From the NCBI RefSeq assembly GCF_900890425.1, contig NZ_CAAHFG010000001.1, positions 2,852,001 to 2,916,000 on the forward strand: a stretch of DNA of 64,000 nt, given 5' to 3'. The notes beneath the pieces are model-generated. The model saw nothing but the letters and a program-made list of their open reading frames with translations. It had not been told where the DNA came from and did no database searches. The stretch is from Pontiella desulfatans. GTDB lineage: Bacteria > Verrucomicrobiota > Kiritimatiellia > Kiritimatiellales > Pontiellaceae. A program made the position numbers and the translations under genes. Position 1 is the first letter of the stretch, and every line of letters begins with the position of its first letter. Positions 1-18,065 of this stretch are shown one piece after another.

Positions 1-412
1 TGTGTGCAGAGTGGGCGATGCACCACAAATTCCCTTTAAGAATTGGAAGAACATAAGTAACGCTCGCATCCCAGTCACTCGAGGCTGTGTGGCAGATCTG
101 AACCCTCCCTTCGGGTCCATTACTTAATGTATGGTACGCGTGAGTTGCACCGACCTCGTTTATAGAGCCGCTGGGCATACGAGGCACAATCAGCGGGGCC
201 CACACGTACAGTGCGGGGCACACCTCGGGAAGGAGGGGGTTGAAGTAAAGCCGCAATTGGTAATCGATGCTGTCCTGCTCACCGGCCACCCACCCCTCGA
301 AGTAGGCCTCGTCTTCCTTCACCCTAACCATTTGAAAGTGGGGGAAGTGCAATTGCATCAAATACACTTGCATGGCTATTACCATATTAATGCTGTTGAT
401 GATCGTACTCAT
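1..412 (-). CDS. E2-like (UBC-fold) ubiquitin-conjugation protein, partial at left edge
   Basis: The reading frame opens with ATG at 412, five bases after the upstream stop at 418-420, and stays open to base 1, so at least 137 residues are present and the C-terminus is missing. The translated segment has the order of a prokaryotic E2: a beta strand ending in FNPLLPEVCP, a Pro-rich loop, then HAYHTLSNGPEGRVQIC with Cys107 in the position of the E2 active-site cysteine, and a Trp seven residues later (ASSDW) as in E2 cores. I infer that it transfers a ubiquitin-like modifier. The neighbouring JAMM isopeptidase supports this. Without the C-terminus or a profile search the family is not certain; Cys65 and Cys131 are other cysteines. 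An E1-like gene should lie further left if the reading is right. Confidence 0.5.
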   Translation of the reverse strand, partial: MSTIINSINMVIAMQVYLMQLHFPHFQMVRVKEDEAYFEGWVAGEQDSIDYQLRLYFNPLLPEVCPALYVWAPLIVPRMPSGSINEVGATHAYHTLSNGPEGRVQICHTASSDWDASVTYVLPILKGNLWCIAHSAH

Positions 413-417
413 GTTAC

Positions 418-1092
418 TTACCGTTTTCCTTTCTTGTGCTTGCGCCCCTTGGAGCGCTGTTTCGTTTTTCCTTTACCCCTGCGTGGGCGTGTGCGCCGGA
501 CTTTCTTTTTGGCTGGGGTGCTTTTACCGGATCGTTTGCGGTCTCCACTGGAGCCTTTGCTGGATACAGCGGTCACCGCCTTACTCTTGCCAGTGTCATC
601 AGCAGGAGATGAATTGCGTGCCGGAGAGGTTGACTCACCTCCCACGAACGAACACAACCGCGAATAGATTTGATCTAGCCTTAGATCCAATCCGCGGGGA
701 TTGATCGTCCGGGAGACATCCATGGGTTCATCCTCAAGATCGGTTTGGCAGAGAACAACAGTTTTGCCATCGCCTAAGCTTTGGAAGAAGCCAATCCACG
801 CAATCCCGCCTCCAGGTAAAGGTATTTCGATGGTAGCGTCACCATCCACTTCGCCAGGGAGAACCTTGACAGCGGAAGCCACCGGGTCAGGAAGCGAAGC
901 AATTCCCTTGGCGAGCGATTTCAGTTGAGGGCAAGGATCTATGGAAGCCTCATTAAGGGTCGATGCGTCAGTATGCCCGGCATATTGGCACCCGTAGCCC
1001 TTATGAGGGGATAGCACCATGCTCCCTAACAATCGTTCGCGTATAGGGCTCATTTCCGAAAGCGGAACAAGTTCTACTGGTATAGGTTTCAT
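418..1092 (-). CDS. Unrecognised protein with long Lys/Arg-rich basic tail
   Basis: This 224-residue protein of unknown family starts at ATG 1092, placed six bases after a strong AGGAGG; an adjacent ATG at 1095 is the alternative. Residues ~1-140 are mixed and could be folded, with a Gly-rich turn (LPGGGIAW) followed by beta-like strands and VVLCQTDLEDEP. The last ~75 residues are low-complexity Ser/Thr then Lys/Arg (TPAKKKVRRTRPRRGKGK and onward), resembling a nucleic-acid-binding or multi-lysine tail. It sits between the JAMM gene and the E2-like gene, so the dense lysines could be acceptors for a ubiquitin-like modifier or a DNA/RNA tether; both are speculation. It does not end in the GG expected of a mature Ub-like modifier. 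Confidence 0.65.
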   Translation of the reverse strand: MKPIPVELVPLSEMSPIRERLLGSMVLSPHKGYGCQYAGHTDASTLNEASIDPCPQLKSLAKGIASLPDPVASAVKVLPGEVDGDATIEIPLPGGGIAWIGFFQSLGDGKTVVLCQTDLEDEPMDVSRTINPRGLDLRLDQIYSRLCSFVGGESTSPARNSSPADDTGKSKAVTAVSSKGSSGDRKRSGKSTPAKKKVRRTRPRRGKGKTKQRSKGRKHKKGKR

Positions 1093-1102
1093 CATGAACC
1101 TC

Positions 1103-1654
1103 CTATCTGTATATGTATGCGTTAATGGTGACATTGCCCTTTGAAGGGCTCATTGTGGTGATCAGCTCGACAAAGGTAGGGATGCAGTTTTTGGCCATAA
1201 TTGAGCTGGCAGACGCAATATCCCCCATACTTGGGCGACGAAGCCCCATGACGTGGTGCGAGTGCCATCGCCCGATAAAACAAAGTCCAAACCGCTTATA
1301 GATCTTTTCGCTGCAACGCCGAAAATAGTTGATATCCTGAATGAACGTTGCAGTGGAATGCACGGCTTGTGGACCAGGTGGCGTAGCCAGCATAACAATC
1401 GGCGTTCCGCTCCCAGTGTATGCCCCGTAAAGGTGTCCCCCGGTCTCGGTATCGCCCCACTCTAATGTATTGCAACGGATGGATTCGATTTCCGAGCGGT
1501 GAATTAGGATTCGCTCTTCCTGTTTAACCTCATCGCAGGCATAGTCACATTGCAGCGTCTTAATACCAACGAGAGCGGAGTCGTGCGTAGATTTTTTGCC
1601 CGGAAGCCCCTCGTTCGATGGCTTCCATAATCCCAGACTATTTTGTGTCTTCAT
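1103..1654 (-). CDS. JAMM/MPN-domain (Prok-JAB) metalloprotease, putative deconjugating isopeptidase
   Basis: All JAMM residues are visible: Glu71 in TETGGHLYG, the His131-Ser-His133 pair in GRWHSHH, and Ser142-x-x-Asp145 in PSMGD, the zinc site of Rpn11/AMSH-type isopeptidases and of bacterial JAB enzymes. In ubiquitin-like systems such enzymes process the modifier precursor or remove it from targets. The frame is open back to 1795, but I place the start at ATG 1654 because AAGGGCAAGAG precedes it and the JAMM domain begins after it. A longer form with a CxxC segment is possible. Length (183 residues) is normal for a stand-alone JAB domain. The gene sits downstream of the solenoid protein and upstream of the basic and E2-like proteins, probably in one transcript. 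Confidence 0.8.
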   Translation of the reverse strand: MKTQNSLGLWKPSNEGLPGKKSTHDSALVGIKTLQCDYACDEVKQEERILIHRSEIESIRCNTLEWGDTETGGHLYGAYTGSGTPIVMLATPPGPQAVHSTATFIQDINYFRRCSEKIYKRFGLCFIGRWHSHHVMGLRRPSMGDIASASSIMAKNCIPTFVELITTMSPSKGNVTINAYIYR

Positions 1655-1831
1655 CTCTTGCCCTTTCTGCTTGCTAGTTTCGCTGAATCCGAACACCGCA
1701 GTGCGGAGCTCGATCACGTGAGCAAGAGTAAGGGGACAGAAGCGGCAGTTGTCGATTGTGGGTGCCAGTTGTAACTCCCCAAGGTAACTCCCCAAACCTC
1801 ACGGTGAAGGCCGGGGATCCACCTCTGGAGA

Positions 1832-4800
1832 CTACGTCAGGGAGTCGCAGGCGCGGGAAAGCCGCAAGGGGATCTCAGCAAGAAACCGATTGTGCGAGTC
1901 ATCACCGGACTCAGATGGCCCAACACGGAAGGAGTGCACATAGCCATACAATTCCGGAAACTGTGGAGTCTCAACATAATCAACAAGGACGGACAGGACT
2001 TCGTGTTCCACTTCGGGAGGAATGGGGGTGTTTGGTGCACAGGCGTTTCGCAACCGACAAAGCAACTGCAATAAATGCGGGGAACCGGTTAATCTTGCGC
2101 ACCTGGCGATACGCCACCAGTAAGGAATCGGTATTTTCGCCGGCGAAGCATCTTGCAAACACACCTCTGCTGCAGACGCAAAGTACTGAGCCCACTTCGA
2201 ACCTTCTTTGAATGCTTGCGCAGAAGTCCATGCGAGTTCTTCAATTCCGTCGATTTGCACCTCATTGAGTACATACATGCGATAAGCATGTGCCTGCTTT
2301 TGTAGCAAGGCAAGATCCTCGCTGGCTTCCATATTCTCTGAATCGATGGTGGGATAGAGGCTTCTAAACTGGAAAACAGTCCCTACCCGAATGGCGAATG
2401 CGAGATCATCCTTCGTTGCTCCCAGTATGCATTCGGCAAGATTCTTGTCCGTCAAGAGATCACATATTCCGCGAAGGACAGTGGCACTTCTCAGAGAAGA
2501 GGCTGCCAGTAACATAAATTTGACTCTACCGTAGATGGATGATTCAGCTTCCGCCACTTCCAAAAAGGCCTCAGCAAAAGCCTCTTTCCATGGATGATCG
2601 GCAAACACCTCCCCTACCATCTCGAGAATCGCCACCCTCGAAGAGCCACTACCAATAATAAACTCGGGATTCTCGACGAAGATCTGTTTAAACAACTTTA
2701 GAGCCCCGACTTTTTGTTCCACAAGATCCGGTCCGTCTCGCATGCATAGGAAAAAAAGTTCATAGTCTTCGGAATCGAGAACAACGAACGGGACGGATTC
2801 CCCCGTATTCTGCCGGGTATGCAATTCGCGCACAAGGCTGCTCCAATGCTTGCAATACGCTTCAAACAGGTGCCATTCCTCGGGAGGTGCTTCGGGTTCG
2901 GCTCCGTCGATCAGTTCATCGCATAGATCGGCCCACTTCGCACCTCCAGGGCCTTTCACCATTGAATGCGTAAATTTTTTCACCAGCCACATCACATCTT
3001 CGCCGCCTCCGGCCTTGAAACTGTCAATCCATAACAGGGCAGCAGAATCGCCAGGCCATATGTTGGCTACGATATTCCTGGAAAGCTCCTGGGCCCATGT
3101 CTCGAGATCGCCATAGCTGTCTCGGCGCCCCGCTAGACGGCTCATAAACACTTCCCATCGGGAGGCCTTCTCGGAACATACATCGGAAACAAATCCAACC
3201 CCCTCTTCACTTTTGGTTACGTCATTCAGTCCCGAAAGGAAGTCCTGCATTATTTCCTCGGAAACATCGCGCTCGAGCTCTGGCAGATTGTCCAGCATTT
3301 CCCCAAACGCATCCGCAATTGGAGCATGAAAAACCTCCAACCAGATCTCTATGTCCTCGAAAAGCGCTGCAAGAACCGAGAACAGGCACGCCGCCCCGAC
3401 TTTTCTTGCTGCTTCCAGCAGTTCGTCAAGATGATGGCGAAGCACATCTACGTAGAGTCCCGGTGTGTCTTCGGGCATGAGTATGCCAAAGGCTTGCGAG
3501 AGTGGGCCTACACGCTTCAAGGGATCGTCGTCCTGTACGAACCATAGCACACTTGCCTGGGACCAGAGTTCCTCACGAATCGTTTGGTTGGCATCTCCAA
3601 GGTATCTTACCAACCGCCCATAGAAGGCGGAATGGTAACGTTCCTCGAACTGCAACGGGAAACGCCGAATGCTAATCAAGAGCGGCTCTTCAAGGGGACG
3701 CTCACGGAGCACCGCATTCGCCGTGTCAAGGAATCCTACGCTAATCCAGGTTCCACAGGCGGATATTTCCTGGGCGACCATGGCGAAGAGATCTATTCGC
3801 ATTTCCTCGTCACCACACCGCAGCACCTCTTCCCCAAGCCCCTTGCTGTCTTCGAAGTTGAATCCGTTCTGTGACTGCGGTTGGTCTATCGTCCCATCCG
3901 TCTGCCGTCGACCTGTCTGCCGAAGTGAGGGAAATACGCGTTCAACTTGCCTTCTGATGAAGGCACCGGGAAGCGTGCCCTCCACATTCTGGCTGGCCAT
4001 GTGCAAAACCCTGAAACCTTCAAGGTCAAAGGTTAGGTGTTGCTCGAGAACCAATAGCGTATCGAGATCTATCTGCTTCACTTCTCCCAGCGCAGAACAA
4101 GCGATCCTGTCGATCGAAAGCGGTTCCAGGGTTGAAGGGGGACTGTCGAGCATCGGCCCACATTTCTCAGCCTCAACGTATTGATGAATCAGCAAGGCCC
4201 GTTTGGACACTTCGCGTATAGATGGAAGCCGGGAAAGAAGCAGAGCTTGATGCTCTTTGTTCTCAGCCATAATCACACCGGCATATAGCAGGAAATCCAT
4301 TCCATCGATCTTGCTCAGGTTTACTCCTTCCACATCCGCAGCCCGCAGTGTCCCGGGGCATCGCAATTCAACCGATAGACACAGGTGGGCACGCTCATCC
4401 TCTGTATACATCACTCGTATCGCATGGAGTATGTCGCGCCGGCTCTGAGGGTCGGGAATATTCTTTATAGAGATTCGAAGAAAACTATTTTCATCGCTTT
4501 GCGTAACGAACCGTTCCCTTAATCCTAGAAGATGTCCTGCCATATCTCGCGTGTGGAATCCGATCTGGCCGACACAACTGGAGCAAAACCGGGCGAGCGC
4601 TTCCGGATGAGGGATGGTTCCAAGAACCGGGGACGGGATAGGCTTCAATGAGGAGAGAATGGATAGGCAACGATCATAATCTGCTCCATCAACGGGAGGC
4701 GACTGCATTGATGCACGCAAAGCCGCTTTCTTCTCGGAGGAAATCCGAAGTCGAAGCAGTTGACGGATCATATGCTCATTAAGCCACTCACATCCCACAG

Positions 4801-6541
4801 AGCTCCCATGATTCAGCAGGAGTGAGAGTCCGGCCAATCGTACTCGCACTCCTTCCATTTTGCGGAGTTTTCCAGCAGCCTTCCACATTCTATCCCAGGT
4901 GTCTTTGAGGTAATCGTCTCCGACCTTGAATGCGACGGACAACGCGACCGCGCAAAGCTCACAGTCACCCATGGAAGCCCATAAGAGTAGAATCTCATCA
5001 ATCCGCCGTTTAAGGAAATTATCGATTACGAGTTTCACGACTTGGTGGTTCTCTGCTTCGTTCACCAAATACTCCGCAGCACGCAACAATTTTCGATAAC
5101 TTTCGTAGTCATTGATCCAAAACAGGGAATCTTCCTCCAACACCTCGGCAACGGAATCCCGAAGCATGGTTGCGAATGGTTTTGGCATGATCCCCGTTGA
5201 CAGGAAAAAGGTCATGATATCCCCTACACGCGTCGAAGCATCGGGTTTATTGAGTTTCCAGTAGGCATTCAGGTGTTTCCGCAATTCGGGCGCACAGGCA
5301 GAGCGCGACTTCCCATCAACGGTGTCAAGTATGTCGGCTGCATCTTTGTAATGGTTCCGGCATATCTCTTCATGTAAGACTTTTTCTTCATCACCGGGGT
5401 TGGCATCAAAACTGGGCTTCATGCCACAACGAGCCAAATGCTCTGAAACAGTAGGTAGTTGCGCGCCAGCCTTACGCACAGTAGAACTCAATGCTTCACG
5501 GCAGAATGATTTATCCTTTCCATCTAGGGAGCTCAGTAGCCGGGCACAATAATCGAAGACAGGTCCCGCGTGCCCCAGTTCCTTAACTGCCGAAAGAAAA
5601 AGCCTATGCATTGCGGAGGCTGCTTGTGTATCGACCAGTGCGAGTCGCGCAACCACACTGCCAGCATATCGATGCCCCCAAAGTGGCTTCAAAATACCTA
5701 AGATGGCATCTCCGGCATTCTCCTGTAGTTGCTCTTCGAGGCATGCACACGCTTCAACAAGCTTGGCTGTAAGTGCTGGACAGTTTCTGACAGCCGCCGC
5801 TTCCGCCGTGGCAATCAACTCTATGACGCTTGATTCGGTAAGAGAATAACTGAGATGGGGTATAATGTTCTCGAGGGTAGCTTCGGATTGCCAGAGTGAA
5901 AGGATAACATCCCCTCGCTCTGCCATCCGGCGGTTCGATTCAGCCAGCGTTGCGGCCGCCAGAATATGTTTATCGGCATCCCCATCAGGGTGCAAAGCCA
6001 GTGAACTTTCGACGCGACGATGCAACAGGTTCTGAAATTGTTCGGGAGTGGTCTCGGGCTTGGTTCGCAAAGTTCGCAACACAGAATCTGTAACAAGATC
6101 AAGGTAAATCTTCGGATCACGTATTCCCAGCACCAAAAATGTAAACGCATATCGACAATGGCTTCCTTCCAGGGAGTCATCTGCGATGACCTCTGAGCAT
6201 CTCTTTGCCAGATTATGTTGCAGCGAGTTCTTCACTTCGAATGGCGTGATTGGTGGCAGCAAAACCTTCATACGCAGGGAGGGAGGGCGCAGAATACAGT
6301 GACCTACAGGAGATGATTGGATAATTTCCGGTGCCAACGAAGCTAGCCGCGAAATGCTGTGACTATCCCAGCCGGTTAAGTACGGCAACAATTCCGTCGG
6401 AGAATCCTCCGGCAACAGAGCGAGAGCCTGAAGCAGCCGGAGCAAGTCCTCCCATTTCTCCTCGGGGCATGCTTGCCGGGTACGGTTCAGGGACTCCGTC
6501 GCGATACTGCTTGTGTTGATTTGGCCACCATTATTCGACAT
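1832..6541 (-). CDS. Giant alpha-solenoid (HEAT/ARM-like) protein partnered with a STAND NTPase
   Basis: This 1,569-residue protein shows no recognised catalytic motif. Almost the whole length reads as amphipathic helix pairs, for example repeated Leu/Ala-rich segments around LLRLLQALALLPEDSP near the start and LLQLLCRLRNACAPN near the end, typical of a HEAT/ARM/TPR-like solenoid. It has no signal peptide or membrane segment, so it should be cytosolic. The ATG at 6541 overlaps the 3' end of the NTPase gene by 11 bases, implying translational coupling and equal stoichiometry. In STAND proteins a NTPase is normally followed in the same chain by a superhelical sensor; here the sensor-like part seems to be a separate protein. 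Sensor function is inference. Intolerance to frameshift over 4.7 kb says the gene is under selection. Confidence 0.75.
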   Translation of the reverse strand: MSNNGGQINTSSIATESLNRTRQACPEEKWEDLLRLLQALALLPEDSPTELLPYLTGWDSHSISRLASLAPEIIQSSPVGHCILRPPSLRMKVLLPPITPFEVKNSLQHNLAKRCSEVIADDSLEGSHCRYAFTFLVLGIRDPKIYLDLVTDSVLRTLRTKPETTPEQFQNLLHRRVESSLALHPDGDADKHILAAATLAESNRRMAERGDVILSLWQSEATLENIIPHLSYSLTESSVIELIATAEAAAVRNCPALTAKLVEACACLEEQLQENAGDAILGILKPLWGHRYAGSVVARLALVDTQAASAMHRLFLSAVKELGHAGPVFDYCARLLSSLDGKDKSFCREALSSTVRKAGAQLPTVSEHLARCGMKPSFDANPGDEEKVLHEEICRNHYKDAADILDTVDGKSRSACAPELRKHLNAYWKLNKPDASTRVGDIMTFFLSTGIMPKPFATMLRDSVAEVLEEDSLFWINDYESYRKLLRAAEYLVNEAENHQVVKLVIDNFLKRRIDEILLLWASMGDCELCAVALSVAFKVGDDYLKDTWDRMWKAAGKLRKMEGVRVRLAGLSLLLNHGSSVGCEWLNEHMIRQLLRLRISSEKKAALRASMQSPPVDGADYDRCLSILSSLKPIPSPVLGTIPHPEALARFCSSCVGQIGFHTRDMAGHLLGLRERFVTQSDENSFLRISIKNIPDPQSRRDILHAIRVMYTEDERAHLCLSVELRCPGTLRAADVEGVNLSKIDGMDFLLYAGVIMAENKEHQALLLSRLPSIREVSKRALLIHQYVEAEKCGPMLDSPPSTLEPLSIDRIACSALGEVKQIDLDTLLVLEQHLTFDLEGFRVLHMASQNVEGTLPGAFIRRQVERVFPSLRQTGRRQTDGTIDQPQSQNGFNFEDSKGLGEEVLRCGDEEMRIDLFAMVAQEISACGTWISVGFLDTANAVLRERPLEEPLLISIRRFPLQFEERYHSAFYGRLVRYLGDANQTIREELWSQASVLWFVQDDDPLKRVGPLSQAFGILMPEDTPGLYVDVLRHHLDELLEAARKVGAACLFSVLAALFEDIEIWLEVFHAPIADAFGEMLDNLPELERDVSEEIMQDFLSGLNDVTKSEEGVGFVSDVCSEKASRWEVFMSRLAGRRDSYGDLETWAQELSRNIVANIWPGDSAALLWIDSFKAGGGEDVMWLVKKFTHSMVKGPGGAKWADLCDELIDGAEPEAPPEEWHLFEAYCKHWSSLVRELHTRQNTGESVPFVVLDSEDYELFFLCMRDGPDLVEQKVGALKLFKQIFVENPEFIIGSGSSRVAILEMVGEVFADHPWKEAFAEAFLEVAEAESSIYGRVKFMLLAASSLRSATVLRGICDLLTDKNLAECILGATKDDLAFAIRVGTVFQFRSLYPTIDSENMEASEDLALLQKQAHAYRMYVLNEVQIDGIEELAWTSAQAFKEGSKWAQYFASAAEVCLQDASPAKIPIPYWWRIARCARLTGSPHLLQLLCRLRNACAPNTPIPPEVEHEVLSVLVDYVETPQFPELYGYVHSFRVGPSESGDDSHNRFLAEIPLRLSRACDSLT

Positions 6542-7754
6542 CTTCTGCCTCCAGCATATCGTGTGCGACTCTCCTCATGAGGAGGATGTTGGAGCCTGAC
6601 AGTTCATACACCTCATTGGCTACTTTCTCCAGGCTGGAACAATCGTAGGATGCAACAGCAAAATAGGATTGTATGAACTCCAAAACACAGGATTCTTCAT
6701 CAAACGAAAAAACAACCGAAGAACAAGGTAGACTACACAAGGCCAGTTGAGCTGGACTTGGAGAGCGAACCGTAAGTATCCAACGGAGTGGTCGTTTTCC
6801 TCCCTGAAGATACTGTCGGATCATTGTGAGTATCCGGCCAAGAAGCTCATCGCCGGATTGGTCGATCCCATCAAGCAACACCAGAACATCAAGCCCATCC
6901 AGTTTGGCTCCCAGCGCAGCAACGAATTCCCCTAACTTCGCACAGGAATCTACTCCACGAACAGACTTGGCCGCGCCGGACACTCCTGTAAATTTAGTCA
7001 GTTGCACAGCAAGAGATTCCGCAAGACAGGATTCCCGCTGCAGTTCTGTATCGTCTTCGCAAAATGGATAGTAGACCGAGGAACGTCGGTTTCGCTGATG
7101 GAAATCAAGGAGCCAAGTAGATTTTCCTGACTGGAAGCCACCAGGTAGAATAAGTATATCGGCCAGATTGCCGGACAGGGCTGTCTCGACATTCTTGTCA
7201 ATGACAGACCGATGAAGAACCACCGGCGCAGATCGCTGGATCTGAAACATCCTGCGCTCCCTTGCATCAGAAGCAATGCCAAGCTGCTCCGCCGGCCTTG
7301 GCCCCTTCTGGGATCGAATGGTTTGCGCGACTTGGGCAGAAGGCATCACGCTGAGGCGATATCCGTAGTCTTTGCTTGTCCAAACAATCGCAATAACAAT
7401 CCGACCCAAGGGCGAGGCTTCGTCCGCTAGCTTCTTGTGAATATGTTCCCTGGTTTTCTCCCGTGTCGGATCGTTCTTCAAATCCATCCATAGCACATCG
7501 CCATACTCTTCATTTGTCAGCAAATGCTCCTTTAACTTGCTGTACAATGAATGTAGAAGTTTTACTTGCGTAGAGGGCGGTTTGGCCTCTTTTACAGCCC
7601 CCGATGCAAACACCCAAAACCCCCGATTTAGAATAGCCTTCTTGCCTTCTCTGGTCTGCGTGCCGGGGAAAGCCGAGGCAAGGGCGCACTGCACCTCTTC
7701 CGAGTCGAGAAACTCGAGCGCCTTGGATGCTGAAATGGATCCTAAACCTTTCAT
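6531..7754 (-). CDS. STAND/NACHT-like P-loop NTPase
   Basis: The protein has a clear Walker A (GGFQSGKST, residues ~205-213) and a Walker B of the NACHT/STAND style (LDVLVLLDGIDQ, ~288-299), followed by an Arg-containing strand (LRWILTVRS) and a helical C-terminus. The N-terminal ~170 residues are a separate domain I do not recognise; they contain GDVLWMDLKND and a beta-rich GRIVIAIVWTS stretch. The frame opens from a TTG at 7775, but ATG 7754 is the likelier start. At 407 residues it is too short for a full STAND receptor and has no repeat domain of its own; the adjacent solenoid gene, overlapping by 11 bases, probably supplies it. Such NTPases act as switch-like sensors in immunity and signalling. 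The specific role here is unknown. Confidence 0.75.
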   Translation of the reverse strand: MKGLGSISASKALEFLDSEEVQCALASAFPGTQTREGKKAILNRGFWVFASGAVKEAKPPSTQVKLLHSLYSKLKEHLLTNEEYGDVLWMDLKNDPTREKTREHIHKKLADEASPLGRIVIAIVWTSKDYGYRLSVMPSAQVAQTIRSQKGPRPAEQLGIASDARERRMFQIQRSAPVVLHRSVIDKNVETALSGNLADILILPGGFQSGKSTWLLDFHQRNRRSSVYYPFCEDDTELQRESCLAESLAVQLTKFTGVSGAAKSVRGVDSCAKLGEFVAALGAKLDGLDVLVLLDGIDQSGDELLGRILTMIRQYLQGGKRPLRWILTVRSPSPAQLALCSLPCSSVVFSFDEESCVLEFIQSYFAVASYDCSSLEKVANEVYELSGSNILLMRRVAHDMLEAEDVE

Positions 7755-7857
7755 AACCCGTTTTCCGTGATACAAATGAACTATACGGGATGATAAGATA
7801 ACACGGAATCAAAAAACGAATCGAAACAGGGCCAGTAAGATGCCGAGACGAGCAAGG

Positions 7858-8763
7858 TTATACAGATTTCCAAGATTCGACTTCCCGATTTGCTCCCATG
7901 ATCGAATACGGAGATTCCTCGCCACCACCATGCCACACTGGAGCATCGAGGCCCGAATCTATCAGTAACGCGTCGCAGGTGAGCCACACGAAGTCGCTCG
8001 GGGCCATTTCGCGCGTCAATGTGCAAAGCGACTCCAGACGAGGTGTGCTTGATGTCACCAGCAGCACCCTGAACCCAAGGAGTTTTCGATTAAACCAGTT
8101 TGGGTCTTCGTATCGTTTGTAGCCATTTCGACCGAGGTATGTACGGTAGACAAGCACCTTGCGCCGCACATCGCTTATAGCTTTTGATTTTCGTGCCGCG
8201 ACCCTTTCCGTGCCCATGTCAATCTCCATAAAGAAGAGGAGCCCTTTGTCTTGCGTCGTGTCAGTGAGACAAAACACCGCGTCAGGAGTGAAGGAAAAAG
8301 ACTCACCATCTGCACTTTCAACATGATCCGATATAATCGGTGCCCCGGTTTTCTTTACATGTGAAGGAGATGTTGAGGAGATGAAGCGTAGAGTCAGTTC
8401 CGGCTTTAGCCTGACGGTCTGCTCGAGGGCACACCGTACCGAGTTAAGCATAACCTGATGGTCTATCAGAGTGCCGATGCCCGAGTCAGTGACCGAGGAA
8501 GGTTTCACACATGCATCCAGCCGCCCGTGTTCTTTTAAAAACTGAACACCTGATTCCGTGACGGAGAACAGGTTTTCCGGCCGACCGCGCCGGCGTCCAA
8601 TGCCGCGAGAGCCGATGTTGAGCAACCCATCCGCTGCCAGGCGCCGCGTCCGCCGTCGAACCATCTGCTCTGATGTATCGAGAAACTGCGCAAGCTGGAT
8701 CGGGGTCGAAACCCTCAGTTCGGCTGCGACCACCATGAGGTTAATATCCTTATCCGCCGGCAT
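7858..8763 (-). CDS. Replication-relaxation-family protein: wHTH plus PD-(D/E)XK-like domain
   Basis: Residues ~8-75 form a winged helix-turn-helix (TPIQLAQFLDTSEQMVRRRTRRL, then a GRPENLFSVTESG wing). The second half has the PD-(D/E)XK-like pattern of the Replic_Relax/MobC family: Pro160-Asp161 in FTPDAVFCL and Glu180-x-Asp182 in FFMEIDMGTE, then a long helix with KSKAISDVRRKVLVYRTYL. Members are common on plasmids and integrative elements, near replication or mobilisation genes. ATG 8763 is preceded by GGAGAT at good spacing. The stop lies about 100 bases before the NTPase start, so it may be the promoter-proximal gene and regulator of the cassette. A 17-bp perfect hairpin upstream (8818-8834) would suit autoregulation. 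Confidence 0.7.
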   Translation of the reverse strand: MPADKDINLMVVAAELRVSTPIQLAQFLDTSEQMVRRRTRRLAADGLLNIGSRGIGRRRGRPENLFSVTESGVQFLKEHGRLDACVKPSSVTDSGIGTLIDHQVMLNSVRCALEQTVRLKPELTLRFISSTSPSHVKKTGAPIISDHVESADGESFSFTPDAVFCLTDTTQDKGLLFFMEIDMGTERVAARKSKAISDVRRKVLVYRTYLGRNGYKRYEDPNWFNRKLLGFRVLLVTSSTPRLESLCTLTREMAPSDFVWLTCDALLIDSGLDAPVWHGGGEESPYSIMGANREVESWKSV

Positions 8764-9154
8764 GAAACATCTCCATTCTGAATAGTTGAATTCATAGAGA
8801 TGAGCGGCAGAAACAGACTGGATGTTTCATCCAGCAGCGGTTTTTAGGGCAAAACTGCTGTCAAAACGTCCCTCCCGTGAAATTCTTCTTGTTAAAATTA
8901 CACGCACCTACTGGCTTCAGACAATGCAACCACCAAAAACCGCGCGATTTGGTGAAAAATCTGTTCGCTACGGTGGGATTATGGAGCCTTACAGCCTGGT
9001 TGGTGATTTTGTACTGAGTAAGAAAACCATCCAGATGCCCGATCCATAGGAGGGCAAATCCCTTGTCATTTGGGAGACCGCTTAATGATGTAGATTGCTT
9101 GAACAACACCGACGAGAAAACAAGTCTGATGATGAAAGTGATGCCTGTAGCAGT
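8764..9154. other. Intergenic segment, about 390 bp, with two inverted repeats and no gene seen
   Basis: No frame here has a credible start, ribosome site and protein-like composition; an 82-residue frame on the minus strand (8861-9109) has none of these. Two inverted repeats stand out: CTGGATG-TTT-CATCCAG at 8818-8834, just upstream of the wHTH gene, and CACCAAA-N10-TTTGGTG at 8931-8954. Either could be an operator. Neither is followed by a T-run that would make it a clear terminator. Confidence 0.5.
8818..8834 (-). promoter_or_regulatory. Perfect 7-bp inverted repeat upstream of wHTH gene, possible operator
   Basis: CTGGATG and CATCCAG flank a 3-base loop, 55 bases upstream of the ATG at 8763. 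Its place between a wHTH gene and its presumed promoter suggests an autoregulatory site; this is inferred from position only. Confidence 0.35.
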
Positions 9155-9574
9155 CTAAACGTAGTGTAAGGACGCTCTGTCCTTTTCTTCCGATATGGAA
9201 TCACGGGTGGCTGTTGCGTAACTTCTGAGCATTCTTGCCATCTTCTGTAACATGCTGGAGCATCGGCTGGAGAACACCCAGCCGGAGCGGTAGCCGTATG
9301 TAGGATTAAAGTGGCTGATGCGTTTGATAATGCCCAGCTTCTTGAGCTTCGCGCGGACGATATCGAGGATTCGAGAAGAGATTTCGTATCGAGATGAAAT
9401 ATCCGTGCTGGACAGAAGGAACTGGTTGTCGGCGTACTTGATCTCAAGCCAGATGGCTACAAAAGCCCGCTGGTGATTGCGGTTGTCCGGAAAGAAAATA
9501 CGGGCGAGATCGTCAAGACCTGAAATCCGTCGCGCCAAAGCCGGGTTCATCTCAATCTTTGTTCTTACCGGCAT
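9155..9574 (-). CDS. Small winged-helix DNA-binding protein, hypothetical
   Basis: A 139-residue protein with a likely winged helix: NQFLLSSTDISSRYEISSRILDIVRAKLKKLGIIKRISHFNP reads as helix, turn, recognition helix and wing (roughly residues 50-93). It has no known enzymatic motif. ATG 9574 follows AGAGGTGA at seven bases; the 5' end overlaps the upstream gene by 23 bases, so the two are translationally coupled. It is the last gene of a three-gene operon. Small wHTH proteins of this kind are common on plasmids and integrative elements as copy-number or transcription regulators; the exact job is unknown. Confidence 0.6.
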   Translation of the reverse strand: MPVRTKIEMNPALARRISGLDDLARIFFPDNRNHQRAFVAIWLEIKYADNQFLLSSTDISSRYEISSRILDIVRAKLKKLGIIKRISHFNPTYGYRSGWVFSSRCSSMLQKMARMLRSYATATRDSISEEKDRASLHYV

Positions 9575-9920
9575 AGGGATTCACCTCTCGGAATGATGGT
9601 TCCGTCAACGCCCGCTGCCGCTGGATAAAGCGATCATGGGCGATGATCAGGGCATCCTGACGAAACCCCGTTCCGAGCTGTTTCTCGATGAAGATGATGG
9701 TCTCGTAGGCGGATACGTAAATATCATTGAAAAGTCGCCAGAATCGCCATCGCACACCCTGGCGGGTCAGCTTGAAGAGACGTTCTACGTGTTCCCCATA
9801 GTTACCCCGCAGCACGAAGTAGAACGGCGAGTCAAACGTTCGTTCGATCCAGACCGCGTCCTGGTCGATGAGTTTCTGAAGCCGCTCCAGGAAGGCTTTG
9901 TCCTTTTCATTGAGCTTCAT
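9552..9920 (-). CDS. Hypothetical 122-residue protein of the zinc-ribbon/wHTH operon
   Basis: I do not recognise this family. The protein is largely helical with an aromatic-rich centre (WIERTFDSPFYFVLRGNYGEH and WRFWRLFNDIYVSAYETI) and no cysteines, signal peptide or membrane segment. It overlaps both neighbours, by four bases upstream (ATG 9920 against the stop at 9917) and 23 bases downstream, so the three genes form a tight operon. The aromatic centre may be a nucleic-acid or protein contact; that is a guess. Confidence 0.6.
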   Translation of the reverse strand: MKLNEKDKAFLERLQKLIDQDAVWIERTFDSPFYFVLRGNYGEHVERLFKLTRQGVRWRFWRLFNDIYVSAYETIIFIEKQLGTGFRQDALIIAHDRFIQRQRALTEPSFREVNPYAGKNKD

Positions 9921-10687
9921 TTCCCTGCCAGGCGAAGCCTGCCTCCCTCTATCTGTTCGATCTCCAGCAGTCCCTCGTGCTCCAGGAATATGGCCGTGAC
10001 AAACCGGAATATCTTATCGAGCTTCGCGTCCTCAATGAGTTGACGTATGCCTTCGAACTCGACGACGCAGCCCTGAACCAGGGCCATTAGGTGATGGCGG
10101 TAGACCTCAAGGTCGAAGTGTTCCGCGACTGCTTGGCGCAGCTCATCGGGAACGACGGAAGCGATGATGGCGTTCAGATCCATCTCCAGCCCCGGCACCT
10201 GATCGATCGACATAGGCTCACACATCACAAGAGGATCTGAGTGCGTGTGTCGGAACATCTGCCGAGACATTTCCTGTTTTCGGCGCTTCTGGTCCCGCGA
10301 CGCCTGCATCTTTTCCCGAAAGTAGGCCGCGTTGAAGACTTTGATCTCAACATTGTAGATGGATCGCACAGGTTGACGGCACCGTGGACACCAGTAGTGG
10401 CATACCTTCAGAACCAGCTTGGATTCGCAATCCGGACAGGTCTGAAATACCAGCGTAGGATCGACCTGTGACGAACAGTTTGCGCACACAGCGAGCGCAT
10501 CGCGTACCATTTGAAGTTCCGGCTCCCCGCATTCAGGGCAGAGCTTCTGAAACAGTACAACTGCGTAGAATAGATCCCTTGCACGAGTCTGGAGTGTAGC
10601 GATGCGGCTCTCGACCTCTCGGAATGCCATAAGGAGTGGGTTGCTTCGCGGCATGCAAATGTTCTCGTCGTATTGAGCTTCGATCAT
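9917..10687 (-). CDS. Zinc-ribbon protein (four CxxC knuckles), hypothetical
   Basis: Residues ~50-103 carry four CxxC pairs (CPEC, CANC, CPDC, CPRC) plus a single Cys96, a tandem treble-clef/zinc-ribbon arrangement that should bind two zinc ions. Before it is a helical segment with EVESRIATLQTRARDLF. After it are a Lys/Arg/Gln-rich helix (REKMQASRDQKRRKQEM) and a helical C-terminal domain rich in acidic and hydrophobic residues. The protein is cytosolic. ATG 10687 has AAGGA four bases upstream. It leads the three-gene operon ending at 9155. Zinc-ribbon proteins of this type bind nucleic acids or act as scaffolds; no specific function can be assigned. Confidence 0.65.
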   Translation of the reverse strand: MIEAQYDENICMPRSNPLLMAFREVESRIATLQTRARDLFYAVVLFQKLCPECGEPELQMVRDALAVCANCSSQVDPTLVFQTCPDCESKLVLKVCHYWCPRCRQPVRSIYNVEIKVFNAAYFREKMQASRDQKRRKQEMSRQMFRHTHSDPLVMCEPMSIDQVPGLEMDLNAIIASVVPDELRQAVAEHFDLEVYRHHLMALVQGCVVEFEGIRQLIEDAKLDKIFRFVTAIFLEHEGLLEIEQIEGGRLRLAGK

Positions 10688-10743
10688 GCATTCCTTAAGG
10701 TCGCGACGCTTATAAAGGTTTCGGTGGGGAATGTCCTGTCAGA

Positions 10744-10762
10744 CCATTCGCTCAATGAATGG
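10744..10762. promoter_or_regulatory. Inverted repeat CCATTC-N7-GAATGG upstream of zinc-ribbon operon
   Basis: A perfect 6-bp inverted repeat with a 7-base loop lies about 57 bases upstream of the first start codon of the operon. It may be an operator or leader hairpin. No T-run follows, so a terminator is less likely. Confidence 0.3.
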
Positions 10763-10820
10763 ATTCCACAATTATTAGCGAAAAAAAAAGTCAATGTGAT
10801 GCAAATGCGTTTTTAGCATT

Positions 10821-11050
10821 CATCCAGACAGGTCGGCCCGGTTGGACAGCAATGCGAACCTCTCTAAAACGACTCTCCATCCGACTCGGTACCGATCAGG
10901 ATAGTAATGCGAACTTGGAATCCTGAAAATTAAGTTTCGTGTTGATAATGACTTGCAACAAAAAAGTGCGAAACCGGATCAAAACGACCCGATTTTCGCT
11001 TTTTGAACGATCATCCAGATCGGTACTCCTGACTGGATAGCGATGCGAAC
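10821..11050 (+). repeat. Three degenerate ~38-bp repeats ending in ATGCGAAC
   Basis: Copies lie at 10821-10859, 10878-10914 and 11012-11050. Each begins CATCC, has an internal partly self-complementary stretch with CGG, then a GGAYAG block, and ends RATGCGAAC. Copy 2 contains the perfect palindrome TCGGTACCGA; copy 3 has ATCCAG...CTGGAT arms. They fill an otherwise empty ~390-bp gap between the toxin-antitoxin pair and the zinc-ribbon operon. They could be REP-like hairpins, iteron or attachment-like sites, or remnants of cassette recombination sites. Unequal spacing argues against CRISPR or simple tandem iterons. Confidence 0.55.
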
Positions 11051-11078
11051 TCACCCTCCTCTACAACCCCAGTCTAAA

Positions 11079-11411
11079 TTACACCGCCACGGCTTCACTT
11101 TTACGAATATCATCGAACTGATTGATTAGAACATCGCCATCATCGAAGTGAGCAACGATCCTAAGTTCTCCACCCATAGCAAAAAGAATCTTGCGCAACG
11201 TGCTAATATAGATATCCGACTGACTTTCAAACTTTGAAACTGCAGCCTGATTAACATGCAGCTCCTTGGCCAGCTCCTCCTGAGTCAATTCCATAGCCTG
11301 GCGTAACTCTTTTAGAGCCAGTTCATTTTTCAGGACCTCAGTCTTGATTTTTATTTTTTCCAGGCGCTCTTCGGGCATATCGGCTAATAGCTTTTTGAAT
11401 GACTTACTCAT
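11079..11411 (-). CDS. higA: HigA-type antitoxin, XRE-family HTH
   Basis: This 110-residue protein carries an XRE helix-turn-helix at ~40-75 (LTQEELAKELHVNQAAVSKFESQ), the signature of HigA-like antitoxins that bind both the toxin and the operator. The start at 11411 overlaps the toxin stop by four bases, giving the toxin-first order typical of higBA. It should neutralise the upstream mRNA interferase and repress the palindrome in the promoter at 11780-11807. The symbol is by family and order, not proven orthology. Confidence 0.85.
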   Translation of the reverse strand: MSKSFKKLLADMPEERLEKIKIKTEVLKNELALKELRQAMELTQEELAKELHVNQAAVSKFESQSDIYISTLRKILFAMGGELRIVAHFDDGDVLINQFDDIRKSEAVAV

Positions 11412-11767
11412 AGCAAACCCTCCTTCTCTAATTCTTCCATATGTTTATCGTATATCTTATCCGCCTGAGGAACGAATTCATCGTACCAACGGTTATTACC
11501 AACCTTATTTCCGCCAATCAACAGGATCGCACATCGTCTGGAATCAAAGGCATATAATACCCGATACGGGTCACCTGCATGCTGAACCCTCAACTCACGC
11601 ATATGACTATGCTTGGATCCAGCTATTCCCGAGCTGAATGGAAACGGGAGAGATGGCCCCTTTTCGCCAAGCAGATTTACAGTAGCCACAACGTCATCCT
11701 GCACAGCTTCGGAAAGCGATTCCCACCAGCCCTCAAATTCATCCGTATATTCGACATCCCATTTCAT
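11408..11767 (-). CDS. higB: HigB/RelE-family toxin (Gp49-like)
   Basis: The protein has the RelE/HigB fold signatures: DVEYTDEFEGWWESLSEAVQD, the conserved MRELRVQHAGDPYRVLYAFDSRR strand pair, and ILLIGGNKVGNNRWYDEFVPQAD, ending in an acidic helix. Such toxins cleave mRNA on the ribosome. The frame opens at 11782, but that ATG lies inside the predicted -10 box, so I place the start at ATG 11767 (MKWDVEY), which would give an almost leaderless mRNA. About 119 residues, normal for the family. It sits beside mobile DNA, as such modules usually do. Confidence 0.85.
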   Translation of the reverse strand: MKWDVEYTDEFEGWWESLSEAVQDDVVATVNLLGEKGPSLPFPFSSGIAGSKHSHMRELRVQHAGDPYRVLYAFDSRRCAILLIGGNKVGNNRWYDEFVPQADKIYDKHMEELEKEGLL

Positions 11768-11779
11768 AACGGCGCTCAA

Positions 11780-11807
11780 CATATAACCTTAGAGTTATAT
11801 TTGTCAA
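11780..11807 (-). promoter_or_regulatory. higBA promoter with embedded palindromic operator
   Basis: Read on the minus strand, TTGACA (11807-11802) and TATATG (11785-11780) are separated by 16 bases, a good sigma70-type promoter. The palindrome ATATAAC-N6-GTTATAT (11781-11800) fills the spacer and -10 box. A HigA-type repressor bound here would block RNA polymerase, the usual autoregulation of type II toxin-antitoxin operons. Confidence 0.6.
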
Positions 11808-12028
11808 TCATATGTTTTTATTGCTCTCCCGATCTCTGCTTTTCGGTAGCCCGAACAGCATCCTTCAGGTAAATTTTGCAGCTTTGCTGATTTCTTAGGG
11901 GTGCGAAAAGGTATCGCCTCCCATAAGTTCATTATTGATAGCAAGTTTTGAGGATTATTATTTTGGGTAAGACAAACGATAATTTTAGATTTTTGCAGGT
12001 GGTATTCATCCTTCTTTCGAGGTTTTAC

Positions 12029-12349
12029 ATGCCTAGATATGATGTGCGGATTCAGATTCTTAAATATCAGATTAAAATGCTTCGTGATCGGATTGATGAT
12101 CCACGAATCATCACGGAGAAAGAGGAGCGTACGGAATTGATGCGACTTGGAGCTTTGATCGACCATGACATCTCCGATGTGATGCTGGTGGTTAAGCCTA
12201 AAACCTATCGCACTTGGCAGCGAAAGAAAGCGGGTAAAAAACCGAAGCGCAAAGGGGGACGACCGGAAACGGAAGCAGGAACGATCCAATTGATTCTTAA
12301 ACTCGTCACAGAAAACCTTGGCTGGGGATACAAAAGAATATTTGGAGAA
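12029..12349 (+). pseudogene. Integrase-type (IS3/IS481-like) transposase, N-terminal fragment cut by an IS4 element
   Basis: This is the only accepted coding sequence on the plus strand. ATG 12029 has GAGG upstream and begins MPRYDVRIQILKYQIKMLR, followed by a helix-turn-helix region (YRTWQRKKAGKKP) and ENLGWGYKRIFGE, the typical lead-in to an rve integrase catalytic core. The frame then enters the IS4 terminal repeat at 12350, so the whole DDE core is lost. The rest of the gene is not found on the other side of the IS (after 13809), which means sequence beyond the insertion point was also lost. Confidence 0.75.
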
Positions 12350-13809
12350 CACTGTCATCCCATAGAGAACGCTAATGAAGTATAAGCGCCCGTTTTTGTT
12401 AAGGTTTTTGATGTTCGGTTCATTTAGTCGATTTCGATTTTTTATCGAAGGTTAATGATGGTTCCCCGTTTTAAACAGTTGGCTGTCCCACAGCTTTTAG
12501 ACGAACCCCGGCAGATACGCCTGTTCCGGTGCTCCTCTGATACGACTGGGTGGTTTGGCTGTCCCATAGGATTCCAGCAAGGCCGTCAGATCCCAGCGTC
12601 GCCACAGCGCGGCGCGCACAACGGTAAAGAGACGCTTGAAGCTGTGTCCCCACCCGTGCATGAACGCCAGGCAGCGCATGAGCAGATGCACCAGCAGCCC
12701 CGTCCAGACCTGCCAGCGAACGGCGTTGGCGCTGTAGCCGAGGAAGTCGGAGAGCTGGAGCGTCTGCTTGATCTCTTTGAAAAATACCTCGATGTCCCAT
12801 CGGCAACGGTAGAGTTCAGCGATCGTCCACGCGCTCCACTCCATGTGGTTGGTCATGAAGACCATTTCGACATCTTTGCCGTTGATCTCCACGAGGGCAA
12901 CGACGCGGCGCAGCTCGCTCGGGTAGGCCTCCTTCGATTTTTCGAGCGCCATCTCAATCACCTCGTCGCGAATGATGCGCTTGTGTCCGGTAGTTTCGAG
13001 CGTGCGCACCACATCGTATTGCATGTTGTCCTTGGCCCGGCCTACCCACCAGATGCCGCGCTCCGTCAGTTCGTAGAGATGCCCGAATTTCGTGTAAGCC
13101 TTGTCGAACACGGCGATTTCACCGGATTTGAGCCCTGCGCACAACGCCTGCGCCTTGGTGCTATCATGGTGCTTCGCCGTATCAACGATGGCGCACCGGG
13201 GCAGAAAGCTCTGCAGGTCGAGGCGCAGATGACACTTGGCCGCGGCTTTGCGACGGCGGTGCTTCGCCCAGTCCATGCAGTTGGCGACCAGTTGGACCGT
13301 GGTCGAGTCCATCGCATGGATCGCCTTGCTGAAGCGCCGAAGGTATCCGCGCCGAACTTTGCCTTTCGCGAAGCCCGGAACCGTATCCATCAGATGCTTC
13401 ATCATGCTCCAGTAGAGTTCTTCAGCCATGTCCGCGCTGCGGACCCTGTTCGCATGGCTCAGGTTGTTGCGCGAAGGAGGAACTGCACCTCGTATAGTCG
13501 AGAGCGCCGCCGCATTCATCTGGAGCGCGTCGCACACATCATTGAGTCCAAGCGCGTGCGAGAAGTGGGCGTACATCAACGAAACCACATGGCTCCACGG
13601 CGTGTACGTCCGGCATCGGGCGTCTACGCCATGCTTCTTCGCAAGGTTCGACACCATGTGTCCGGGAATCAGATTGCACATTTGTTTCAAGGTAGTATAC
13701 CTATGTCCGGCTGGTTTGTGTTTTTGTCTTTGTTTTTTCATACCCTCCGAGTGGAGGATTTAAGACGCACTTACCAGCCTTTTTATTTAAGAGCTATGGG
13801 ATGACAGTG
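12350..13809 (-). mobile_element. IS4-family insertion sequence, copy 1 (1,460 bp)
   Basis: The element is bounded by 16-bp perfect terminal inverted repeats (CACTGTCATCCCATAG at the left and its complement at the right) and carries a single transposase gene on the minus strand. A second copy lies at 26406-27865 with the same length. The flanks show no target duplication: the left is ...TTTGGAGAA and the right is ACTTGGATT.... Together with the missing 3' half of the interrupted transposase, this indicates a deletion or recombination after insertion. Confidence 0.9.
12497..13741 (-). CDS. IS4-family DDE transposase, copy 1
   Basis: The 414-residue protein has an N-terminal DNA-binding domain and an RNaseH-like core: Asp145 in AMDSTTV, Asp213 in VFDKAYT, and the IS4 signature Y-(2)-R-(3)-E-(6)-K at Tyr311, Arg314, Glu318 and Lys325 (YRCRWDIEVFFKEIK). 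All catalytic residues are present, so the enzyme should be active. It differs from copy 2 at residue 208 (Glu here, Lys there) near the second Asp. Confidence 0.92.
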   Translation of the reverse strand: MKKQRQKHKPAGHRYTTLKQMCNLIPGHMVSNLAKKHGVDARCRTYTPWSHVVSLMYAHFSHALGLNDVCDALQMNAAALSTIRGAVPPSRNNLSHANRVRSADMAEELYWSMMKHLMDTVPGFAKGKVRRGYLRRFSKAIHAMDSTTVQLVANCMDWAKHRRRKAAAKCHLRLDLQSFLPRCAIVDTAKHHDSTKAQALCAGLKSGEIAVFDKAYTKFGHLYELTERGIWWVGRAKDNMQYDVVRTLETTGHKRIIRDEVIEMALEKSKEAYPSELRRVVALVEINGKDVEMVFMTNHMEWSAWTIAELYRCRWDIEVFFKEIKQTLQLSDFLGYSANAVRWQVWTGLLVHLLMRCLAFMHGWGHSFKRLFTVVRAALWRRWDLTALLESYGTAKPPSRIRGAPEQAYLPGFV

Positions 13810-13911
13810 ACTTGGATTTCTACCCTTTGATTTTTTCGTTTTTGCACTCACATTGATCATTCGACCGGAACTGAGAATTTCCTCGAGTTTTTCATCCCTT
13901 CTTCCTCTGTC

Positions 13912-15077
13912 CTATTTAGCGGGGAGTTTGGCGCCGACGCTTTTGAGGTATTTCAAATCGTCCGCCTGCAACACCTTCGAACCGAGCATGCTCGTTTGAC
14001 CGTTGGCTGTTTTGATGGTCAGAATTGTTTTGCCTTTCGGGTTCACGAAAATATCGGCGAGCGATCCTTCCATCTCCTGCTTTTTTCCTTTAGCCCAAAC
14101 CCGGCTTTCAAACGTTTTGCCGGCAGGCATCAGGTGGGCGCTGGATTTCTTCGTAGATACAGCGGGTTTCTGTGCCGGGTTTTTACGGACCGCCGCACTA
14201 CCGGTCAGTTTCTCAACCGGCAGGTTGCGGAGATTCCGATAGGGGCGCAGCTTGCTATTTGCGTTGGCTTCGGGATCATACAGAGGGTTGGGACGACGCT
14301 GATATTTTAGCGGCACGACTTCGTCGATTATGACGTCGATTTGCTTAACCAGCTCCTGCGCTTTTTCCGGCATCTTTTCGGCGAGATCGTTTTTCTCTTC
14401 GATATCCTGCGCGATGTTGTAGAGCTCGAGATAGCCCTGATCGTCATAGATCAACTTGTAATCGCCTTTTCGAATCGCACTGCGAGGATCGCCGGCTTTA
14501 TGCCAGAAGAAGGTATCGCGGGTGTATTGATTGGCTTTGTTTTTCGGATCTTCGAGCAGCGGAAAAATCGATTGCCCGTCCAACCTCATTGCGTCCAAAT
14601 CGCCGGCTTGTCCCACCACATTCATAATGGTCGGGAACATATCTTCGATGCCAATCGGCAGATCGCAGAATGTGTTCGGCTTAATTTTACCAGGCCAGTA
14701 GGCGATAAACGGAACGCGCACGCCGCCTTCTGCAACAGCTTGGGAAAGGATTGCTGCGAACCGTCGAACACCCCTTTTTCATTCACCTTGAAACCATTTT
14801 TGTGGCTGTGCTTACCGGTCAGAATGGTGGCGCGACTCGGCCCGCAGATCGAATTACCCACCATACAACGGTTAAACCGCATTCCATCAGCCGCAAGCTG
14901 GTCAAGGTGCGCGGTCGGTGCGACTTTCGCAAGGATTCCACCGTAAGCACTGATCGCCTGGGTGGCATGATCGTCCGTAAAAATAAAAACTATATTCGGT
15001 CGCGCGGCCGAGTGGGCAGTCATCACCATCCCCGCAAAACAGACTGTCCAAAAAATTAATTGTTCACACCGCTTCAT
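13912..15077 (-). pseudogene. S1 sulfatase with internal deletion and frameshift; SHD1-like C-terminal tail
   Basis: The 5' part (from ATG 15077, with GGAGG upstream) encodes a signal peptide, the NIVFIFTDDH metal site and the formylglycine motif CGPSR. At about 14723-14733 the frame breaks. The second part, in another frame, resumes at EGGVRVPFIAYWPGK, so several hundred central residues, including the GKWHL region and the second metal-binding half, are gone. The C-terminus carries an extra ~70-residue domain like SLA1-homology domain 1 (FESRVWAKGKKQEMEGSLADIF...ADDLKYLKSVG), known from PVC secreted proteins. It cannot make an active sulfatase. It lies next to IS copy 1. Confidence 0.85.
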
Positions 15078-15180
15078 ACAGCCTCCATATCCACAATCGT
15101 TCTTTCCTTTAATTTTCCATCAAGCATCCGGTCAATATGATCGCTCAATTCACCCAATGAAATTTCGGTATACATTTCCA

Positions 15181-17913: not shown

Positions 17914-17998
17914 AAAACTCCTTAATAAACCGATACCGTTTGTTGAATGGTGTCGCGCCAGGGGCAACACCAATCCGATTTAGCCTCTTATACTCAAC

Positions 17999-18033
17999 GA
18001 TCCAGCAAAAATGAAAATCATTCCTGCTGGATC
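17999..18033 (-). terminator. Strong hairpin between GH94 and GH78 genes
   Basis: GATCCAGCA (17999-18007) pairs perfectly with TGCTGGATC (18025-18033) around a 17-base loop. It follows the GH94 stop at 18066 and precedes the GH78 start, so it may partly terminate or stabilise the upstream mRNA. No clear U-run follows on the minus strand. Confidence 0.4.
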
Positions 18034-18065
18034 GCACTAACAGAGGACTGCACGTTCTATATGTA

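Follow-up and report, generated by a model that had tools for sequence, protein, structure and literature searches.

The window analysed here, a stretch of 64,000 nucleotides from Pontiella desulfatans (G000:C1:2852001-2916000, in a genome of 8.66 Mb), reaches into an integrated mobile element. On balance, we favor the reading that this element carries a complete, diverged ubiquitin-like conjugation pathway that acts with HerA-like ATPase and kinase partners against invaders, and that the split STAND ATPase encoded beside it is a separate matter. The steps of such a pathway can be proposed from its parts: The E1 would adenylate a small protein at its C-terminus, this substrate most likely being the protein of about 60 aa that we refer to as X; the E2, judging by its fold and residues, would accept this substrate on a conserved cysteine; the substrate would then be attached to target proteins; and the JAMM isopeptidase, given its intact zinc residues, would remove it again. 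The partners in this branch would be the HerA-like ATPase, coiled-coil proteins, a WD40-like protein, and a Ser/Thr kinase, and the output would most likely be an anti-invader response, as for the related module in CBASS.

Five co-directional genes at the left edge of the window, noticed in an earlier sequence-only reading, are borne out by the ORF list, all on the minus strand. In their order along that strand, a STAND/NACHT-like NTPase with an N-terminal domain of about 170 aa, the first half of the split STAND (6531..7754, starting at 7754 or 7775), is followed by a 1,569-aa putative solenoid protein that forms the second half (1832..6541), a JAMM isopeptidase (1103..1654; of the possible starts at 1654 and 1795, the ATG at 1654 is the likely one), a Lys/Arg-tailed protein (418..1095; start at 1095 or 1134, likely the ATG at 1095), and an E2 (2..412) that extends about 38 nt past the left edge. 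To the left of the window we covered about 26 kb more (segments L002 and L003, where an L002 coordinate equals the window coordinate plus 16,000), which completes the E2 at 149 aa (L002:15963-16412). Beyond it, on the same strand, lie the copies of X (L002:15489-15920 and 15121-15333), the E1 in a 446-aa ORF (L002:13802-15123, with the ATG at L002:15123 as the more probable start), the HerA-like ATPase of 934 aa (L002:11020-13824), two proteins with coiled-coil-like sequence, p170 (170 aa, L002:10521-11033) and p210 (210 aa, L002:9887-10519), the WD40-like protein of 610 aa (L002:8038-9870, so called for its homology to a protein of a sister element that has a weak WD40 match), and the Ser/Thr kinase (L002:6596-8065; Pkinase, 9e-37). 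After p377 and p171 comes a Lon-like protein of 554 aa with a Lon-type proteolytic domain (L002:3303-4967), and past it p194, p253, and a TrwB/TraD-like ATPase of 902 aa. The conjugation genes sit in a run of about 19 genes, in which most adjacent pairs overlap or almost touch.

The enzymes of the pathway are all recognizable, as the proposal of a ubiquitin-like conjugation operon had it. The E1-like, ThiF-fold gene that was to be looked for further left lies directly past the window edge (ThiF E=8.8e-33). This predicted E1 has intact adenylation residues, and the adenylation and zinc residues of the family are conserved in 46–47 of 47 sequences. In ThiF-like enzymes the catalytic cysteine sits in a loop; at that position there is no conserved cysteine among the 47 sequences, most of which carry E-[I/V]-[S/T] there, and our E1 departs even from this motif. 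For the E2, a UBC fold had been set beforehand as the point on which the proposal could fail, and both structure prediction and structure search confirm it. The AlphaFold model, built from 37 homologues, has a mean pLDDT of 91.8 and a pTM of 0.86; the Foldseek matches listed are all of the ubiquitin-conjugating fold, with single E-values that are weak (0.015 and up), and by VIA-align the best chains are those of Serratia CdnG-E2 complexes from CBASS (Z 11.1 and 10.4), with UEV and E2 domains next (Z 8–10). BubCD-BubB appeared only among these E2 structure matches. C107 of the E2 is invariant in the 37 sequences, and a His comes directly after it in nearly all members.

The JAMM protein scores 7.6e-16 against the PADLOC JAB model and, as first read, keeps all of its zinc residues: E117, H178, H180, S189, and D192 (ORF numbering) are each the same residue in all 42 homologues aligned. 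The Lys/Arg-tailed protein is the detached C-terminal piece of this JAMM; its match is the undivided JAMM protein of 447 aa in a sister element (L035, E=1.9e-10). At the junction of the two genes, the JAMM 3' end reads ...AGATAGGAGGTTCATGATGAAA..., so that the ribosome-binding site of the Lys/Arg-tailed protein overlaps the JAMM stop, with AGGAGG on the stop and 3 nt ahead of the first ATG. The junction within the split STAND is built alike, with GGAGG 6 nt ahead of a solenoid ATG that overlaps the NTPase stop. Because Shine-Dalgarno sequences stand at both junctions, both splits look natural, and a frameshift or assembly error behind them is unlikely.

A ubiquitin-like gene ending in Gly was also to be looked for on the left. 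There is indeed a small gene between E2 and E1, that of X, but it has no ubiquitin-fold match, and a frequent end of the family is GFA. In this element X is present in three tandem copies, an intact 70-aa gene directly before the E1 and a 143-aa ORF that joins two copies; between the X copies (L002:15121-15920) stands a degraded second 5' end of the E1 gene, a local duplication. By iterated profile search, X is present at 46 of 48 related loci; 29 of these encode it separately, and the other 17 as an N-terminal fusion to the E1. Among 30 free X proteins, 11 end exactly in GFA, another 12 carry one to eight residues after it, and 16 end in Ala; GFA, alone or with a few residues more, is the usual end in Bacteroidota, and the HerA branch has no conserved C-terminus of X. 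The structural model of X, of moderate confidence (pLDDT 75), matched no known fold and nothing ubiquitin-like, and no Ubl Pfam match was found among the operon proteins; kelch-like sequence hits to X reflect one short motif repeated. The fold result, the C-terminus in the HerA branch, and the fusions to the E1 all count against our preferred explanation. The cGAS that is conjugated in type II CBASS has Gly or Ala as its last residue (PMC10097602), and by this analogy the Ala end of X is compatible with activation. We take X to be, most likely, the conjugated modifier and small substrate of the E1.

The alternative that survives best concerns this one step and is compatible with the remainder of the explanation: X could be a domain that binds or activates the E1, and the conjugated protein could be another product of the operon, joined through its own C-terminus, as happens to CD-NTases in type II CBASS. 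We regard this as a genuine possibility, short of an even chance. X may be such a domain because it has no recognizable ubiquitin fold, has an unconserved C-terminus in the HerA branch, and is fused to the E1 at 17 loci; conjugation of cGAS via its C-terminus is known (PMC10097602), and the CD-NTases of the CBASS loci related to ours have a conserved C-terminal LFG..FG[AQV] tail. Against it, X is encoded on its own as well: Our element has several copies, and a related locus (L034) has both a free and a fused one. The GFA end of X is also conserved in Bacteroidota. The coiled-coil protein p170, considered as a Pup-like modifier for its SGGQ end, was rejected since its tail is unconserved (GGGQVT in L035, ATRGK in the L034 homologue).

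Beyond this locus, JAMM, E2, X, and E1 form a widespread module that is found across several phyla and coupled to differing partners. Scanning 84,980 species genomes with an E1 profile gave 47 loci, to which further loci from other searches were added; the true number is higher, because the search patterns favor close relatives. The four genes recur in this order, with JAMM in 41 related loci, E2 in 47 of 49, and X at the frequency given above. Downstream partners vary by E1 clade. One clade of 14 loci is joined to Cap4-SAVED and usually a CD-NTase, and is therefore CBASS; 14 other loci have a ClpB-like AAA ATPase as partner; and our locus, L034, and L035 share what we refer to as the HerA cassette (HerA-like ATPase, coiled-coil proteins, WD40-like protein, and Ser/Thr kinase). 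The E1s of these three loci and of a further genome, G048, group together with modest support (80). The order E1-HerA-p170-WD40-kinase-p377 is kept in L035, a mobile element from Phycisphaerae, and in part in L034, which shows no JAMM or E2. That the cassette was found at only three loci counts against our explanation as well; the HerA homologues seen on plasmids and in the rest of the phylum stand in other contexts, without an E1.

Several further associations were seen among these loci. The CD-NTases of the CBASS clade (L046:11066-11938 and relatives) have a near-invariant C-terminus, LFGSTFG followed by A, Q, or V, possibly a conjugated end. Two loci (L060:2142-5147 and L062:3371-7934) carry radical SAM/SPASM proteins, one with PqqD, and an amidohydrolase upstream of the JAMM gene, where L062 also has a Ser/Thr kinase; these sets resemble peptide-maturation clusters. 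A dynamin-like GTPase (L069:12786-15053) lies downstream of another member of the module.

That the locus belongs to an integrated mobile element is apparent from its markers, namely a tyrosine integrase, a TOTE-type archaeo-eukaryotic primase, the TraD/TrwB-like ATPase, and a Replication-relaxation (Replic_Relax) protein, with homologues in sister elements. The integrase and primase lie beyond the TraD-like gene, and Replic_Relax (7858..8763, minus strand; PF13814, E=2e-15; homologues in the sister elements L035 and L026) lies on the opposite side. We found no direct repeat of at least 14 bp shared between L003:4200-6000 or 7430-7935 and window positions 9000-14000 that could mark attachment sites, and no tRNA in L003 or in positions 1-20000 of the window. 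To the right of Replic_Relax, an ORF on the same strand (9917-10687) has zinc-ribbon matches and a weak EAD2 match, and two translations at 11079-11782 have the look of a HigBA-type toxin-antitoxin pair. The Lon-like protein (L002:3303-4967) is without the AAA part, its candidate Ser (GFSAD) and Lys (AK) are conserved in three elements, and part of its C-terminus is found again in p194.

The sister elements show which parts travel together. The L035 contig (genome G289) reads Replic_Relax, JAMM, E2, X, E1, HerA, p170, WD40-like, kinase, p377, and onward to a Lon-like gene (E=2.5e-101), a TraD-like gene, and the primase. G048 has JAMM-E2-X-E1 followed by p194, p253, p377, p171, and Lon-like and TraD-like genes, without the HerA cassette. 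Between Replic_Relax and JAMM, each element has a content of its own: Ours holds the split STAND, L035 a STAND-type WD40 protein that runs the opposite way, and G048 an AAA ATPase and HNH pair plus other genes, the pair being Septu-like as far as its sequence can be read.

In three genomes the module accompanies the element backbone, and for this reason we take seriously, as a rival to host defense, the idea that it serves the life cycle of the element itself. The conjugation module would then regulate the HerA and TraD ATPases, the Lon-like protease, or replication, for example in transfer, copy control, or exclusion of rivals. In its favor, the modules of our element, G048, and G289 all lie inside the backbone (p377, p194-like, Lon-like, TraD-like, and Replic_Relax), even where the HerA cassette is missing, and it is their E1s that group together (support 80). 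For most relatives of the module, however, this backbone was not observed, and their links are to CBASS or AAA partners; we judge the element-serving role unlikely overall. We hold a bolder version of our own explanation to be just as doubtful, namely that these elements form a family with a pathway of their own, in which X is a tandem modifier of about 60 aa with a non-ubiquitin fold, the E1 works without a conserved loop cysteine, the HerA, WD40, and kinase proteins provide the output, and the split STAND is an optional plug-in sensor.

The split STAND itself, as the sequence-only reading had proposed it, is probable: The NTPase has a Walker A motif (GGFQSGKS) and a NACHT-type Walker B motif (VLVLLDGID), and scores just under the curated cut-off of Pfam NPHP3_N (E=7.6e-5). 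The solenoid protein matches no Pfam family and nothing in PADLOC; its translation suggests a winged-helix-like start and then probable repeats, which would place the split between the NTPase lid and the winged-helix-like part. Its proposed union with the conjugation genes into one conserved system fares worse. The two STAND genes overlap each other but not the conjugation genes, because the likely JAMM start is the ATG at 1654, leaving a gap of 177 nt from the solenoid stop. Homologues of either STAND gene were found neither at related E1 loci, nor on plasmids, nor in IMG/VR, and a scan for a P-loop with a NACHT-type Walker B found none near related E1 loci; viral contigs held no relatives of the E1, HerA, NTPase, or solenoid. 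Homologous loci in which the five genes never occur together had been named in advance as evidence against a single system, and this is largely what we see for the STAND part, though not for JAMM and E2. When 278 phylum genomes were searched with the NTPase, nothing but its N-terminal 170 aa came up again, in a protein that fuses them to a C14 caspase domain and lies beside another caspase-like gene (G228; L086:6383-9474); such domain shuffling suggests that this domain couples to effectors as an adaptor.

One integrated immune system, in which the split STAND is the sensor of a trigger and either controls the conjugation pathway or is modified by it, is accordingly the least probable of the alternatives. 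It can point to the shared strand, to the 177-nt gap, in which no promoter-like site was found (the co-direction and this result also count against our explanation), to the STAND-type NTPase beside the JAMM gene in L035, and to the description of Ubl conjugation within NTP-dependent conflict systems (PMC7159879). Yet the L035 STAND is a different protein, with a WD40 C-terminus and on the opposite strand, and G048 has neither type; it is the lack of STAND homologues at any related E1 locus, and the other genes in the sister slots, that leave a STAND-driven system weakly supported. The STAND pair is most likely a separate, exchangeable defense gene in the variable slot of the element and not the trigger of conjugation. 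For the conjugation pathway, defense remains our best guess by association, because of the CBASS sister clade, the resemblance of the kinase and HerA to PADLOC models, and the mobile-element setting.

Bacterial E1-E2-JAB operons, mobile ones included, have been described since 2006 (PMC1779556), and Ubl conjugation within NTP-dependent conflict systems since 2020 (PMC7159879). A literature search, conducted largely outside the subscription journals, found no paper on JAMM-E2-X-E1 with HerA, WD40, and kinase genes, nor on X. The locus would add a multi-phylum conjugation module with an unrecognized small component, which plugs into outputs as different as cyclic-nucleotide signaling, AAA chaperone-like ATPases, and a HerA-kinase cassette, and it offers testable cases both of ubiquitin-like tagging on a mobile element and of protein conjugation via a partner unlike ubiquitin.

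Among known systems, MADS is approached through two matches to broad families, the kinase to PADLOC mad6 (also to PD-T4-6) and the HerA-like ATPase to mad8; the full mad gene set is absent, and no other MADS part matched. The FtsH-ternary conflict system of Kaur and colleagues (2020) likewise joins Ubl conjugation, a beta-propeller, and an NTPase in one operon (PMC7159879), but no vWA, MoxR, FtsH, RING E3, or EAD1-Ubl-E2 was found among the operon proteins scanned. The best anti-phage NCBIfam match of both E1 and JAMM is 6A-MBL (NF058523), whose curated cut-off both miss by a wide margin; in Iyer type 6a, a single E2-E1-JAB polypeptide stands beside a metallo-beta-lactamase (PMC1779556). Bil (BilABCD) and Iyer type 6d likewise have separate genes for the Ubl slot, E2, E1, and JAB, and type 6d has a His close to the E2 cysteine, as here (PMC1779556). 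In contrast to both, X is not recognizable as a beta-grasp Ubl (the operon has no Ubl Pfam match), and the partner genes differ; unlike that of Bil, our E1 is short and MoeB-like, without the BilD Cys domain or a conserved Cys in its loop. Type II CBASS (Cap2 E1-E2, Cap3 JAB) differs in that here there is no SAVED effector, the operon proteins scanned gave no CD-NTase (SMODS) match, E1 and E2 each have a gene of their own, X is added, and the partners are HerA, WD40-like, and kinase proteins. At the same time, type II CBASS likewise has E1, E2, and JAMM in one operon, its CdnG-E2 complex is the closest match to the fold of our E2, and CD-NTase and Cap4-SAVED accompany the sister clade of our E1.
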